From IMG/VR virus record IMGVR_UViG_3300013093_000186, positions 1 to 30,290 of that record: a DNA stretch of 30,290 bases; one strand, written 5' to 3'. The notes beneath the pieces were generated by a model. It saw only the letters and a list, made by a program, of their open reading frames with translations, searched no databases and was not told the origin of the DNA. Below are positions 1,872-27,037 of the stretch, one piece after another; the first letter of the stretch is position 1; each line of letters begins with the position of its first letter. Position numbers and translations under genes: made by a program. The DNA is from a virus.

Positions 1872-4049
1872 TTATGCAATCATTTTGATAAAACGGTTTA
1901 ACACGACACGGTTATTTAACTTATTTCCCGTATACTTACTGAAGGCAGAAACGATACCACGAGTGGTTGCATTTTCTTTTACTTCAAATTCGGCATCATC
2001 ATCAATAGCCATGCCTTGTGATCTGAGCAAATAGTACTCATCAAATCCTGCGGAAGTCACCACAGAGTAATTGTCTTTCCTGAATTGTATGGCTAATGTA
2101 TCATATCTCTTTTGATTTCCTCCGAAATCATAGAATCTATGTATCTTACGGTTAAACTCTGATCCAGCGAGGACATAGAAACCAATGATATTACAGTCGG
2201 TTAATTTTTTCAATAACTTAATCAAACCTGTTGTAACATTAGCACCGTATTGACAATCTCTAATAGTTTCTTGATTTTTAGTCTTAGGATCTCTGATAAC
2301 TAATACATCTAGACCATATAGAGGTTTATTATATTTTCCATCTTCTTGGTATACACCATCAATAGAATCGGATTCACCATCAGTAAGGAAAATAGTATTT
2401 ACAATTTGTAATTTGTTTTTCTTTTGAAATTCTGGTACTATTTTTGCAGCCGATATAATTGCCTGATTCAATGGTGTACTTGAAAGACTTGTCCACCAAG
2501 GAAATCTTTCACCTTCAGAACTACCGATAAGTCCGATAGCACACAGTACAGATCCAGCATACATGAAATCGGATGCCGACATTCTATGTGATAAAATATT
2601 CATCAGCGAAAACTTGTTGAATGCCAAGTTTCCATTTTTAGGTGTAACCTCATATGTATATTCAGGTAAAGACTCACATGTGAAAGCATATACCTCATAA
2701 GGAATATTAACCTTTTTACAAAACAACACCAAATTAAATAACTGTCTCATTGTGTTGGCTATGTGATTACCCATAGAACCGGACCAATCTAAGAACATTA
2801 CAAGTCCGTGAGATTTACCATCAGGCATAACCGAGATTTTCTTGAAGATATCTTCATTGAATTGGTAAGAGAATATTTTGCTCATATTCAAATCACCAGT
2901 TTTTGATACTGAAGTCTTCTTCATCTGGTCGGCATTTTTGCGTAATTCAAATTCTTTGACAAGATAGGATACTACTTTTTCAGATTCAATACGAATTTTA
3001 CTGAAATGTTCTTTTCCTGTACGATATGATTGGCCGTCAGGACCGCCTTTTTTGTATTTTTTGTAAAAATCCTTGTAATCAAAGATGGCTTTGTTTATAT
3101 CCAAGTCAGGAAGATCAGCATATACATAATCTCTTGATTTTTTATCAAATAATTTTGACTCATTTTTACGGAAAGCCTCATCAGTATGGGATTTCAATTG
3201 ATTTTGAGCAATTTTGGCGTCATTTTCTTCAGTAATGCCATCGGTAGACTCATTTTTTTCGTCTTTGTCGCTTTTTTTGTCTTTAGTATCAGAATTTTTA
3301 GAATTTTGTTGTGAATTTTCTTTCTGGTCTTCGTCTTTGTCGCTTTCCTTAGACTTAGATTTGCCGGAATTTTCAGATTCGTCTTTTTCTTGCTCATTTT
3401 TATCGCCGAGATTCATATTTTGAAAAGAATTTTCATCTTTTTCAGGATTTTCTCGATTTTTTACTTTGAACTTGCCTTTTTTAATTTTTTCTTTCTGCTC
3501 TAATTTCATATATTCGACAATTTCTTTAGAGACACGGATTACATCATCAAAGGTTTGAGTATTTTCAACTTTATCTAGCAATTCACGTTCTATTTCATCA
3601 AATTTTATGCCTTGAGCCGGACCACCTTTGCAATGGATATTAACTCTGTCTATAAAATTCATGTCGCTGAGATCTTGACCATTAGTTCCGAAAAAATCAC
3701 GTTCAACTAATTCAGTATATCCTTTGACAAACGATTTAGATAGACCAGGATATCTGTACTTGATTTTTCTCTCAATACGGGAATCTTCAACTACATTAAT
3801 AATAGTTTGGTCAACACCAGCAATTAAATTCTCTTTTAACTCAATAGCAGGTGTATAGAGAGCATGGCCAACCTCATGTCCCATAAAAAGGTCATATAGT
3901 TGGCTGGAAATTTTATTATCTAATATTGGAACCGTCAAAATACGATTTTCAACATCAAAGAAAGCTGTAGGTACTGACCTCTGCTCTACCGAGAGGTTCT
4001 CAGTTGCCATTAACTTGGCCAGTATTGATTTGGAATTAATCAGTTCCAT
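1872..4049 (-). CDS. HExxH metallopeptidase-like and VWA-domain protein (CobT-like)
   Basis: This 725-residue protein has three parts. The N-terminus has a zinc-protease-like signature: HEVGH at 58-62 and, downstream, NVVEDSRIE (85-93), which could supply the third metal ligand. A highly charged Lys/Glu/Asp/Ser linker covers about 185-290. The C-terminus is a von Willebrand A domain with MIDAS residues DWSGSM (421-426), T525 in SSTPLNQA, and LTDGESD (555-561). Related proteins in T4-like marine phages are annotated CobT-like or peptidase, and cellular relatives work with MoxR/CobS AAA+ ATPases as metal-chelatase or remodelling systems. No such ATPase is in this window. AAGGA lies 6 bases before ATG. 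Function in phage is unknown; chelatase activity should not be assumed. Confidence 0.85.
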   Translation of the reverse strand: MELINSKSILAKLMATENLSVEQRSVPTAFFDVENRILTVPILDNKISSQLYDLFMGHEVGHALYTPAIELKENLIAGVDQTIINVVEDSRIERKIKYRYPGLSKSFVKGYTELVERDFFGTNGQDLSDMNFIDRVNIHCKGGPAQGIKFDEIERELLDKVENTQTFDDVIRVSKEIVEYMKLEQKEKIKKGKFKVKNRENPEKDENSFQNMNLGDKNEQEKDESENSGKSKSKESDKDEDQKENSQQNSKNSDTKDKKSDKDEKNESTDGITEENDAKIAQNQLKSHTDEAFRKNESKLFDKKSRDYVYADLPDLDINKAIFDYKDFYKKYKKGGPDGQSYRTGKEHFSKIRIESEKVVSYLVKEFELRKNADQMKKTSVSKTGDLNMSKIFSYQFNEDIFKKISVMPDGKSHGLVMFLDWSGSMGNHIANTMRQLFNLVLFCKKVNIPYEVYAFTCESLPEYTYEVTPKNGNLAFNKFSLMNILSHRMSASDFMYAGSVLCAIGLIGSSEGERFPWWTSLSSTPLNQAIISAAKIVPEFQKKNKLQIVNTIFLTDGESDSIDGVYQEDGKYNKPLYGLDVLVIRDPKTKNQETIRDCQYGANVTTGLIKLLKKLTDCNIIGFYVLAGSEFNRKIHRFYDFGGNQKRYDTLAIQFRKDNYSVVTSAGFDEYYLLRSQGMAIDDDAEFEVKENATTRGIVSAFSKYTGNKLNNRVVLNRFIKMIA

Positions 4050-4212
4050 CTTTTTTCCTTAGGTGTAATGCACCGTCAATTAGTTCAATTTTAATCGTAT
4101 CACCTTCTTTCCAACCAGTTTCTTCAAGCATCTCTGGAGGAATATTGAATATTACATTAGCAGAATCGCCAGGAATATCCTGAAATACATCTTCATAATT
4201 ATAGACTGTCAT
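4036..4212 (-). CDS. AbrB/MazE-type (SpoVT-AbrB fold) small protein
   Basis: The 58-residue product begins MTVYNYEDVFQDIPGDSANV. It then shows a typical swapped-hairpin pattern: NVIFNIPPEML, GWKEGDTIKIEL and GALHLRKK. This matches the AbrB/MazE/SpoVT DNA-binding fold, used by antitoxins and transition-state regulators. No toxin partner (MazF, PemK or VapC type) is visible next to it. Its 3' end overlaps the start of the HExxH/VWA gene by 14 bases, so the two are tightly coupled. It could be an autoregulator of this operon or a solo anti-toxin. The fold call is good; the role is inference. Confidence 0.75.
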   Translation of the reverse strand: MTVYNYEDVFQDIPGDSANVIFNIPPEMLEETGWKEGDTIKIELIDGALHLRKKDGTD

Positions 4213-4357
4213 TCTTTTCTTTCAACTCATGGTAAGCTTCTAGGTCTTTCTCATACAAGGACATGATAGCCCATTGCTTGGTTACATCATCAATCATATT
4301 TAACTCGGTCTGGTACTCTGTTGGTTTACGTTGAAGTTGGTTTGTGTACTCACTCAT
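4199..4357 (-). CDS. small hypothetical protein (52 aa)
   Basis: ATG 4357 opens a 52-residue frame, MSEYTNQLQRKPTEYQTELN, ending TAA at 4199-4201. It is strongly helical and acidic (DDVTKQWAIMSLYEKDLEAY). Its end overlaps the AbrB-like start by 14 bases, and its start lies inside the end of the upstream basic gene (8-base overlap), so all three are probably translated in series. The Shine-Dalgarno is weak (GTGAG). No family is recognised. Confidence 0.6.
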   Translation of the reverse strand: MSEYTNQLQRKPTEYQTELNMIDDVTKQWAIMSLYEKDLEAYHELKEKNDSL

Positions 4358-4491: not shown

Positions 4492-4824
4492 TTATCTCCT
4501 CATTCTTGAAATGTCCACAGCCTGCTCATCCGTGAAAACCGGCACAGCATTGGACTTGTGCATTGTTGCAATACCTTTGACCATGGAACCGGTGTAGACT
4601 TTAGGTGCGGGTTTTGTTGCCACACCTAGGCCAGTATCCTTTGACGGATGACGAACGGTTTCACGACCAGGTGGTGTACTTAGATTGTACGACCAACCGG
4701 AGGTTTTTATTGGTTTAATTGTTTTTGCTGGGGAATGTTTAAGCAACCACTGGTCATACTGCTCACGAACAGCTTTCGGTGGTTTCTTTTTCTTGGACTT
4801 TGGCAATGTACCATAAAATAGCAT
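4492..4824 (-). CDS. conserved hypothetical phage protein
   Basis: The product is 110 residues. The N-terminus is basic (KSKKKKPPKAV), the middle is Pro/Thr-rich, and the C-terminus ends in GIATMHKSNAVPVFTDEQ then ISRMRR. I recall this C-terminal motif as conserved in many T4-like and other tailed phages of marine bacteria, with unknown function. AAGGAG lies 9 bases before ATG 4824, and a near-consensus sigma70 promoter lies just upstream (4854-4882). It heads an operon running to about position 1000 or beyond. Confidence 0.75.
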   Translation of the reverse strand: MLFYGTLPKSKKKKPPKAVREQYDQWLLKHSPAKTIKPIKTSGWSYNLSTPPGRETVRHPSKDTGLGVATKPAPKVYTGSMVKGIATMHKSNAVPVFTDEQAVDISRMRR

Positions 4825-4853: not shown

Positions 4854-4882
4854 ATTATACTACAATATGGGCTTTAAGTCAA
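4854..4882 (-). promoter_or_regulatory. sigma70-type promoter P1
   Basis: On the minus strand TTGACT (4877-4882) and TATAAT (4854-4859) are separated by exactly 17 bases, and the -10 continues as TATAATAGATA. The expected RNA start is near 4847, about 23 bases before ATG 4824. The region upstream of the 110-aa gene is otherwise non-coding. It is one of three sites in the window with the same -10 extension. Confidence 0.85.
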
Positions 4883-4889
4883 GCTCAGT

Positions 4890-4905
4890 GTTGTATTAAT
4901 ACAAC
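4890..4905. repeat. perfect 16-bp palindrome upstream of P1
   Basis: GTTGTATTAATACAAC reads the same on both strands. It spans the stop codon of the 54-aa gene and lies 7 bases upstream of the P1 -35 box. The half-site GTTGTAT recurs in the palindrome at 27020-27037. It may be an operator or a hairpin; no U-run follows it on the minus strand, which argues against a classic terminator. Confidence 0.5.
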
Positions 4906-5075: not shown

Positions 5076-5501
5076 TTATGGTAACATATCTTTAAAGGCT
5101 TCTTTTACAAATTTGTAATCTAAGCCTTTCACGCCTTGGTCTTTTCGTAAAATGCCGGCTATAATTTCAGCTTCACGAGGCTCCAATGATTCCAACATTT
5201 GAATCACTAATTCATTTCTTCTTTTCGTAGTTAATTTTTCGGCAGTAGGATGTCCTTTTTGAACAATATAAATTCTACGCAATTGATTATTAAGTGTATC
5301 ATGTGTGATACCTGGTAGAACATCTTGGGGTATTTTATAGTTATCTGGTATTTCATCTATCATCCATTGATAATTTGGATGAAAGGTTAATTTTAAGACC
5401 TCAACCAAGACAGGGCTCAAATTCTTACCAATTATGTCCATTCGCTCTTTTTTATTTTTTGCTAATTCAAATTCATCAAATATTTGATATATGTGTTTCA
5501 T
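5076..5501 (-). CDS. conserved T4-like phage protein (DUF6433-like)
   Basis: The product is 141 residues, with N-terminal MKHIYQIFDEFELAKNKKER, FHPNYQWMIDEIPDNY in the middle, then RRNELVIQMLESLEPREAEI and a KFVKEAFKDMLP end. This arrangement (short helical N-terminus, F-H/D-P-x-x-x-W, LExLxPxEAxI, L/F-V-K-E-A-F) matches a family I know from T4-like cyanophages and pelagiphages, which I believe is DUF6433. Its function is unknown. The start overlaps the RNase H stop by one base (TAATG), with GAGGA 7 bases upstream. A TATAAATA box lies 98 bases upstream inside rnh. A role in replication is suggested only by the neighbour. Confidence 0.75.
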   Translation of the reverse strand: MKHIYQIFDEFELAKNKKERMDIIGKNLSPVLVEVLKLTFHPNYQWMIDEIPDNYKIPQDVLPGITHDTLNNQLRRIYIVQKGHPTAEKLTTKRRNELVIQMLESLEPREAEIIAGILRKDQGVKGLDYKFVKEAFKDMLP

Positions 5502-6349
5502 TAAAATTCCTCAATCACTTCCATTAAATTGGTTAGCTTGTTCTCTACAAAGTAATTAAACATCTTTCCTCTAGATGGTGGTTTAATATCATCATAAGTA
5601 TTTATAATTTTTGCTTTTATCTCATCTGGTATCATTGTCAAGTCGATAAGCATCTTATTACGTGACCAACCAACCAAAGTCTCAGCATCTTCCCATTGAT
5701 CTAACGGTGTCTTCATTAACTTTTCAAGTATGCTTTTAGTAATTGGCTTTTGACGTAATTCATTTACAAAACAATCCGCTGGTGATAATACATTAGGAAT
5801 GCCATCACCTTTATCTCCACGGATAATCTTTTCTTTTAAATCATCTATTGGATTTTCTGAAACAACATACTTCTTTAATGAAGGATTATATTGCTTCACA
5901 TTTTTGTATTGTTGTAACTGTAGAAAGTCACCATCACTCGATAGTATCAAGATCTTTTCATGTGCTGAATGCCGGGGTACTAATGTACCAATGATATCAT
6001 CAGCCTCAGCACCTTCAACATCTATACATTTGTAAGGAAAGTATTCTTTTAATTCCTGTTTAAACTTAGCCAACATATCAAAAATTAAGTGCCAATCTAA
6101 ATCGGACTTATCTCTGGCTTTTTTACGACCTGCTTTGTAATGTGGAAACCATTCCTTGCGCCAGTACTTACGGTTGTCACAACATAGTACTACTTCTCCG
6201 TATTCATCACGGAAGTTCTTTAGGTGAGTCCTGATGATGTTCAGGATCATGTGGCGTATTAAGTCTTCTTCTAACTTAACACCTTTAGAATTGTTTATCT
6301 GTGCCATTAGGCCAGATAGCAGGACCTGATTCAAATCAACTAATATCAT
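5501..6349 (-). CDS. rnh: T4-type RNase H (FEN-like 5'-3' exonuclease)
   Basis: The 282-residue protein (T4 Rnh is 305) should remove RNA primers from lagging-strand fragments. Acidic metal ligands are visible in order: D5 (LVDLN), D58 (CCDNRKYW), the cluster E112/E115/D117/D118 (VEGAEADDIIG), D139/D141 (SSDGDF), and D179/D182 in the H3TH turn RGDKGDGIPNV. The basic arch WRKEWFPHYKAGRKK (63-77) fits substrate threading. It has its own promoter (P2) inside the end of the upstream gene, with a leader of about 20 bases. It pairs functionally with the primase at 12395-13417. Confidence 0.93.
   Translation of the reverse strand: MILVDLNQVLLSGLMAQINNSKGVKLEEDLIRHMILNIIRTHLKNFRDEYGEVVLCCDNRKYWRKEWFPHYKAGRKKARDKSDLDWHLIFDMLAKFKQELKEYFPYKCIDVEGAEADDIIGTLVPRHSAHEKILILSSDGDFLQLQQYKNVKQYNPSLKKYVVSENPIDDLKEKIIRGDKGDGIPNVLSPADCFVNELRQKPITKSILEKLMKTPLDQWEDAETLVGWSRNKMLIDLTMIPDEIKAKIINTYDDIKPPSRGKMFNYFVENKLTNLMEVIEEF
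5599..5606 (-). promoter_or_regulatory. possible late-promoter box inside rnh
   Basis: The minus strand reads TATAAATA, an exact match to the T4 late-promoter -10 box, 98 bases upstream of the 141-aa gene start. It lies inside the rnh coding sequence, where AT-rich codons can make it by chance. Support is only the 8-base identity. Confidence 0.25.
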
Positions 6350-27019: not shown

Positions 27020-27037
27020 GTTGTATATTTATACAAC
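27020..27037. repeat. perfect palindrome GTTGTATAAATATACAAC
   Basis: The 18-base sequence has 8-bp arms and a 2-base centre and contains the late box on the minus strand. Its half-sites GTTGTAT/ATACAAC are the same as in the 4890-4905 palindrome, with a centre of 4 instead of 2 bases. It lies in the 117-base spacer between the glycosyltransferase stop (27091) and ATG 26973, so it may be an operator on the promoter or a hairpin at the transcript end. Confidence 0.6.
27026..27033 (-). promoter_or_regulatory. T4-type late promoter box
   Basis: The minus strand reads TATAAATA, identical to the T4 late-promoter consensus recognised by gp55 with the sliding clamp. It lies in a non-coding spacer 53 bases before ATG 26973, where a late promoter for the head-associated gene block is expected. 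No other promoter element is obvious in the spacer. Confidence 0.65.

Follow-up and report, generated by a model that had tools for sequence, protein, structure and literature searches.

A recurrent palindromic promoter box in uncultured, T4-like freshwater phages, with a layout resembling that of class I activator sites

Transcription control in T4-like phages is, to our knowledge, known mainly from T4. Outside phages, the E. coli activator CRP recognizes the palindrome TGTGA-N6-TCACA. At class I promoters, in the account of PMC11894529, CRP is centered at -61.5, -71.5, -82.5, or -92.5 and works through the alpha C-terminal domain. The box reported here resembles such sites in being a 5-6-5 palindrome that is phased upstream of an intact -35 element, with predicted box centers near -60, -71, and -82; it differs from them in its letters (GTTGT-N6-ACAAC), in that one of its two main positions lies near -50, and in that the phages tested that carry it have no CRP-type gene. 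The MotA box of T4 middle promoters is, as described in PMC2988021, nonpalindromic, is bound by a MotA monomer, and overlaps the -35 region at -30. Like those middle promoters (MotA box, AsiA), the promoters described below form a phage-wide set with an extra element; unlike theirs, this element is palindromic and lies further upstream, and the -35 element is kept. MotA itself scored over the cutoff only in T4 among 20 records, with subthreshold matches in syn9 (E 0.013) and in one box-carrying relative, G003 (E 0.028). Finally, T4-like cyanophage genomes share with the present lineage the presence of several palindromic, putative activator sites per genome, in their case sites for host NtcA, given as GTA-N8-TAC in PMC3037559. 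Unlike these, the palindrome studied here has GTA-N4-TAC, and the cyanophages S-CAM1, syn9, and DSL-LC02 contain at most one N6 palindrome each.

The window analyzed is the entire 30,290-bp IMG/VR record IMGVR_UViG_3300013093_000186, probably a fragment of a T4-like phage genome, with its plausible genes for the most part on the minus strand. For one query, DNA similarity to phage records was confined to 2% of its length in four Melnitz-type records; another query gave none. A preliminary description had pointed to two palindromes with a common half-site, at 4890-4905 and 27020-27037 (Table 1), had called both perfect and placed each beside a promoter, and had read them as operators of one regulator that perhaps switches early and late transcription. 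Both are present at these positions, and GTTGTAT-N2-4-ATACAAC had no match in 100 shuffles. The copy at 4890 is perfect; in the one at 27020, the central pair is mismatched and the other 8 of 9 match, which makes "perfect" wrong for one of the two. Palindromes as such are not rare here, and the shared half-site is the sole unusual feature: the window holds four whose arms are 8 bp long, and 30 order-1 Markov sequences held 4.5 on average. Since such palindromes are no commoner than in shuffled sequence, the question was settled by comparison. The spacer between GTTGT and ACAAC also differs (N6 at 4890 versus N8 at 27020), which matters because relatives strongly prefer N6.

Table 1. Positions of the promoter, operon, and palindrome features of the window
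Feature	Position	Strand	Basis or remark
Predicted operator box GTTGTATTAATACAAC (GTTGT-N6-ACAAC), perfect palindrome	4890..4905		Presence, conservation, class-wide promoter linkage and phasing
P1 -35 element, TTGACT	4877..4882	-	7 bp from box
P1 -10 element, TATAAT	4854..4859	-	Promoter also in relatives
First P1-operon gene, phrog_27048, function unknown	4492..4824	-	Family match
Small ORF of P1 operon, no assigned role	4199..4357	-	ORF list
MazE/AbrB-like 58-aa protein (PF04014, phrog_661), P1 operon	4036..4212	-	Family match
Peptidase-like protein (phrog_459), P1 operon	1872..4049	-	Family match
Imperfect palindrome GTTGT-N8-ACAAC, judged outside box family	27020..27037		Spacer, relatives, 18-mer search
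TATAAATA, possible T4-type late box	27026..27033	-	Window scan

The promoter next to the 4890 palindrome, P1 (TTGACT-17-TATAAT, minus strand), is a near-consensus sigma70 promoter scoring 11/12, and the distance of 7 bases between the two had been given correctly; the box center would lie about 50.5 bp upstream of the inferred start site. The 27020 copy has no linked -35/-10 pair. Among 80 loci with relatives of the first P1-operon gene, 29 had a clear start, and upstream of these the palindrome was found exactly in 26 and with one mismatch in 2, being absent from only one (L044). Its gap to the TTGAC of the -35 element was 7 bp in 22 relatives and 6 bp in 6, these loci representing 20 distinct contexts, and the box was kept down to about 53 to 59% protein identity. 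While the letters of the spacer vary (ATTAAT, ATTAAA, AAAAAA, TTTAAT, TTTTTA), GTTGT...ACAAC and the gap are constant. Overlap of the box with the stop codon of the preceding gene is seen in the window but not in several relatives, so that the conserved distance is that from box to promoter. A terminator or RNA hairpin at 4890 was rejected because in relatives (e.g., L018) the box lies beyond that stop codon with its distance to the -35 element unchanged.

Box-carrying promoters of this kind recur well beyond the P1 locus. The combined pattern of box and promoter was found in at least 120 stretches of IMG/VR with an N6 spacer versus 14 with N7, and in 11 stretches among genomes representing 84,980 species of bacteria and archaea. 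We derived the consensus TGTTGT-WTnnAW-ACAACA from 119 distinct virus promoters (the IMG/VR stretches with L033 omitted); its 3' A is present in 116/119 sequences and its 5' T in 98/119. Three relatives of 160 to 172 kb (G003, G007, and G008; 160.0 of 160.7 kb scanned in G007) each contain about six to eight clear promoter-linked boxes with at most one mismatch, besides one to three coincidental-looking rows per genome. In these genomes, the boxes precede tRNA arrays, the P1 operon, AAA/CobS-like and further operons, and small unknown genes. Among 110 proteins encoded downstream of a box, the phrog_27048 cluster is the commonest (35/110), and a cluster that by eye resembles the phrog_459 protein, which we take to be CobT-like, directly follows the box in other phages in 14/110 cases. 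The 58-aa MazE/AbrB-like protein occupies the same place in relatives as in the window.

The preference for a 6-bp spacer was seen in each collection of loci. In 80 loci, N6 accounted for 28 sites versus 0 to 8 at other spacers, and in 78 other loci, chosen solely for a protein family that we call HTH-110 (see below), for 69 versus 1 to 11, with 46 of the 69 linked to a promoter. Eleven relative records yielded 43 matches to GTTGT-N5-9-ACAAC, 31 of them N6, one record being without any. Over all spacers, a control pattern read backwards equals GTTGT-N5-9-ACAAC in match number in G003. In several HTH-110 contigs, the whole-record number of matches to GTTGT-N5-8-ACAAC was no higher than that of such a control (7 versus 15 in G402, 4 versus 13 in G403, and 5 versus 7 in G409), a point against HTH-110 as the binder. 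For six of the eight HTH-110 contigs the places were listed, and N6 formed the majority in five (G406: 3/7). Most N6 copies in relatives whose flanks were read face a sigma70-type promoter. The isolates T4, Melnitz, Mosig, PhiW-14, ACP17, and C48C1 match the cyanophages named above in having at most one N6 palindrome each; BUCT-ZZ01 has three, one of them beside a weak (9/12) promoter-like match.

With its 6-bp spacer, strong sigma70 promoter, and preferred gap, the 4890 palindrome belongs to this class. Conservation, recurrence, and promoter linkage strongly support one part of the preliminary description, namely, that this palindrome is an operator adjoining a promoter and that other promoters carry copies as well; it is probably one site of a phage regulon. 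The box is apparently undescribed, as judged from open-access titles and the starts of abstracts. The kind of element (a palindromic box in class I layout) is known; its sequence, the phage lineage, and the candidate regulator appear to be new.

The geometry of the class was assessed on 88 nonredundant boxes whose loci had been selected without reference to promoters: loci with relatives of the P1 gene or of HTH-110 (the latter giving 60 of the 88 boxes), two complete genomes, and the surroundings of palindromes in relatives. Boxes closer than 70/90 bp to a sequence end were excluded, as were contexts with fewer than 25 differences over 96 positions. A promoter was considered linked when it scored at least 9/12 within 46 bp of the box. 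By this measure, 73 boxes had a promoter on one side, none had promoters on both sides, and 15 had no promoter, compared with promoters at 4.6% of 1,716 nearby random positions. The linked promoters are near consensus (mean score, 10.9/12), and a promoter-like match overlapped the box in only two cases. Gaps between box and -35 element fell into groups of 4 to 7 bp (32 sites: one at 4, one at 5, 8 at 6, and 22 at 7), 15 to 18 bp (29 sites: 5 at 15, 14 at 16, 9 at 17, and one at 18), 21 bp (3 sites), 26 to 31 bp (6 sites), and 38 to 39 bp (3 sites). At a period of 10.5 bp, the vector strength was 0.76, a value that none of 20,000 uniform draws attained. These draws ignore relatedness; the sequences are related, and the box counts are therefore not independent. 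The 12 sites with gaps of at least 19 bp alone are weakly phased (vector strength, 0.43). Loci picked by promoter, with a pattern that admitted gaps of 5 to 9 bp, gave 129 nonredundant boxes, of which 17 had gaps of 8 to 9 bp, 2 had gaps of 10 to 14 bp, and 9 had gaps of 15 to 18 bp, and one-mismatch boxes occur at gap 8 in G007 and G008. Since gaps of 8 to 9 bp do occur and those of 10 to 14 bp are nearly empty, the near range covers about 4 to 9 bp and is followed by a trough at 10 to 14 bp. If start sites are placed 7 bp after the -10 element, the box centers lie near -50, -60, -71, and -82. With start sites inferred in this way, and with gaps of 8 to 9 bp occurring as well, the boxes occupy helix-phased positions upstream of the -35 element, and in this they resemble class I activator sites.

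The box, its preferred 6-bp spacer, its site upstream of the -35 element, its phasing at about 10 bp, its recurrence in phage genomes, and its scarcity elsewhere are computed directly. The best explanation that we can offer, to which we assign a probability of roughly two-thirds, is class I-like activation from 4890-type boxes in a phage regulon. A presumably dimeric protein would bind TGTTGT-N6-ACAACA upstream of the -35 element of strong sigma70-type promoters and would activate them from one face of the helix, class I style, probably by way of the RNA polymerase alpha subunit; the protein itself might be the phage-encoded, approximately 110-aa winged-helix protein HTH-110. As the centers lie near CRP class I positions, we read the box as an activator site, inferring the sign of the effect from its placement. 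If correct, a conserved, phased activator box recognized in sequence alone would provide an uncultured lineage with a middle or delayed-early mechanism that can be put to the test. The box would also mark the regulated promoters of that lineage and could point the way to a compact phage regulator whose operator is defined.

The main rival, which we consider unlikely, is that the phages borrow a host transcription factor, e.g., of the CRP/FNR type, which binds the box. The box shares what we take to be the TTG-N8-CAA core of CRP/FNR-type sites, its centers match CRP class I positions, and there is a precedent in cyanophages, which carry 1 to 16 NtcA sites each and have been proposed, in the account of PMC3037559, to borrow host NtcA. 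No CRP-type HTH was recognizable in the box phages tested; a CRP-type binder encoded by the phages was thus rejected, and a factor of this type would have to be the host's. Against borrowing, the promoter-linked pattern was found in only the 11 stretches of bacterial and archaeal genomes mentioned above, which have no common setting save four similar Lactiplantibacillus matches. Likewise, TGTTGT-W-N4-W-ACAACA occurred in 24 of 369 Gammaproteobacteria, with at most three copies per genome, although this class may not be that of the host; among the 17 of 29 gammaproteobacterial places inspected, there was no shared setting, and one (L274) had a weak promoter-like match (9/12) at an allowed gap. 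These two scans do not support the box being a copy of a bacterial promoter, either.

If, as we prefer, the activator is encoded by the phages, HTH-110 is the best candidate on sequence and model evidence, at somewhat under even odds. This orphan family of about 110 aa (set A2, built from eight proteins plus L149) has no Pfam match and no significant PHROG match; six of the eight other members are 64 to 71% identical to the first, and two are 31 to 35% identical. An AlphaFold2 model shows a winged helix (pLDDT 75 to 89 over residues 11 to 90), and the nearest solved folds include Fur, SmtB, PadR, and MarR regulators among others, with weak matches (E 0.05 or worse). HTH-110 is encoded in G003, G007, G008, and fragment G005 and is absent from nine of ten isolates without the regulon, ACP17 being marginal (E 0.003). 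Its gene directly follows a box in L149 and is second behind one in G003; in the neighborhood count (54 of 80 loci kept as nonredundant), boxes near the gene lay upstream or no more than 3 kb downstream, with 3/49 farther downstream. On the other hand, only 4 of 11 contigs picked by box pattern yielded HTH-110; the 7 in which it was missed include G397 (171 kb), where one of two boxes inspected was promoter linked. Nor was it found in G011 (117 kb), in G009 (89 kb), or in fragments G002 and G004, each of which has N6 boxes, and two N7-control contigs have two N6 palindromes each without it. HTH-110 may mark no more than a clade: in a smaller comparison, 58 ORFs of G008, some of them spurious, likewise occurred in G003 and G007 but in none of four isolates. 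If it is the binder, the box promoters would be delayed-early or middle promoters of phages without MotA. The fuller picture, in which an HTH-110 class I activator replaces the MotA/AsiA middle mode in an uncultured T4-like lineage, with tRNA arrays, CobS/CobT-like genes, and small genes as its regulon, is tentative and, in our estimate, a little more likely than a host factor.

Box promoters of tRNA arrays (L089 1071-1190, L125, and L129; G003 94240 and 95380, minus strand) are followed by a leader, TGTTCTTTAAAAA..., which to our eye resembles the boxA region of bacterial rRNA operons and might recruit antitermination factors.

Another phage protein could bind the box instead, namely, the PF14090 winged-helix protein, the MazE-like protein of the P1 operon, or an unrecognized one, which we judge to be less likely than the host factor. 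The PF14090 protein (L233:13845-14114), whose gene in G008 lies near what we take to be clamp and clamp-loader-like genes, occurs in G003, G007, G008, G009, and, weakly, G011; its family is also found in isolates without the regulon, by weak matches in Melnitz and Mosig. The MazE-like protein was present in seven of eight uncultured relatives tested. Its family, too, extends to isolates without the regulon (DSL-LC02, syn9, and, weakly, S-CAM1), and the protein is acidic (13 D/E, 5 K/R) and lacks the basic N terminus that would be expected; we therefore disfavor it. A further 57 ORFs share the presence pattern of HTH-110, the one candidate that was folded.

Slightly less probable again is the idea that the bound protein represses or times the promoters rather than activating them. 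Phasing alone leaves the sign of the effect undecided, and p4 of phage phi29 is said to be able to repress or time a promoter from upstream. Moreover, promoters so near consensus have no evident need of an activator, and damping may be what they require. Simple repressors, however, as a rule cover the -35 or -10 element, and the box coincides with a promoter-like match in only those two of 88 cases and never has promoters on both sides, which argues against repression.

As for the second palindrome, the letters quoted in the preliminary description are those of the minus strand; the plus strand reads GTTGTATATTTATACAAC. The late box said to lie within it is there (TATAAATA, from 27033 to 27026 on the minus strand), and it may be a late promoter, because the RBS-like start of a gene (26973-25819, minus strand) begins 48 bp after the start of the box. 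This gene gave no PHROG or Pfam family and no relative. The palindrome itself is set apart from the class by its spacer of 8, the 4890 palindrome being the only promoter-linked box of the window in the N6 scan. N8 boxes numbered 2 in 1.08 Mb of relatives, versus 69 for N6, and the strict N8 form was absent from 1.42 Mb. No conservation was found for the 27020 palindrome: the only relative of the neighboring gene (L371, 59% identity) has no GTTGT-N2-10-ACAAC in 10.7 kb, a weak test, as its upstream DNA is not recognizably homologous. The exact 18-mer occurs seven times in IMG/VR, two copies having the same flanks and the rest no visible shared setting. Most likely, then, the 27020 palindrome stands outside the regulon and is a coincidence around a possible late box, and we rejected it as a sister site of 4890, on its spacer and for lack of support. 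That the two are operators of one regulator switching early and late transcription is very improbable, for although the half-sites are shared and a late-type box lies inside the 27020 copy, the spacer of that copy exceeds the one at 4890 by 2 bp, a rare form, no conservation was found, and the other coding-strand copy of TATAAATA is without such flanks. The preliminary description had recognized one real operator, to which it added what is probably a look-alike.

TATAAATA occurs twice on the coding strand of the window and not at all on the other strand; the second copy, at 5606 (minus strand), lies inside an exonuclease-like gene (5501-6349), with an RBS-like start 35 bp after the start of the box. 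Among the proteins of G008 is one that matches phrog_254, a late-promoter regulator family (L237:19741-19962).
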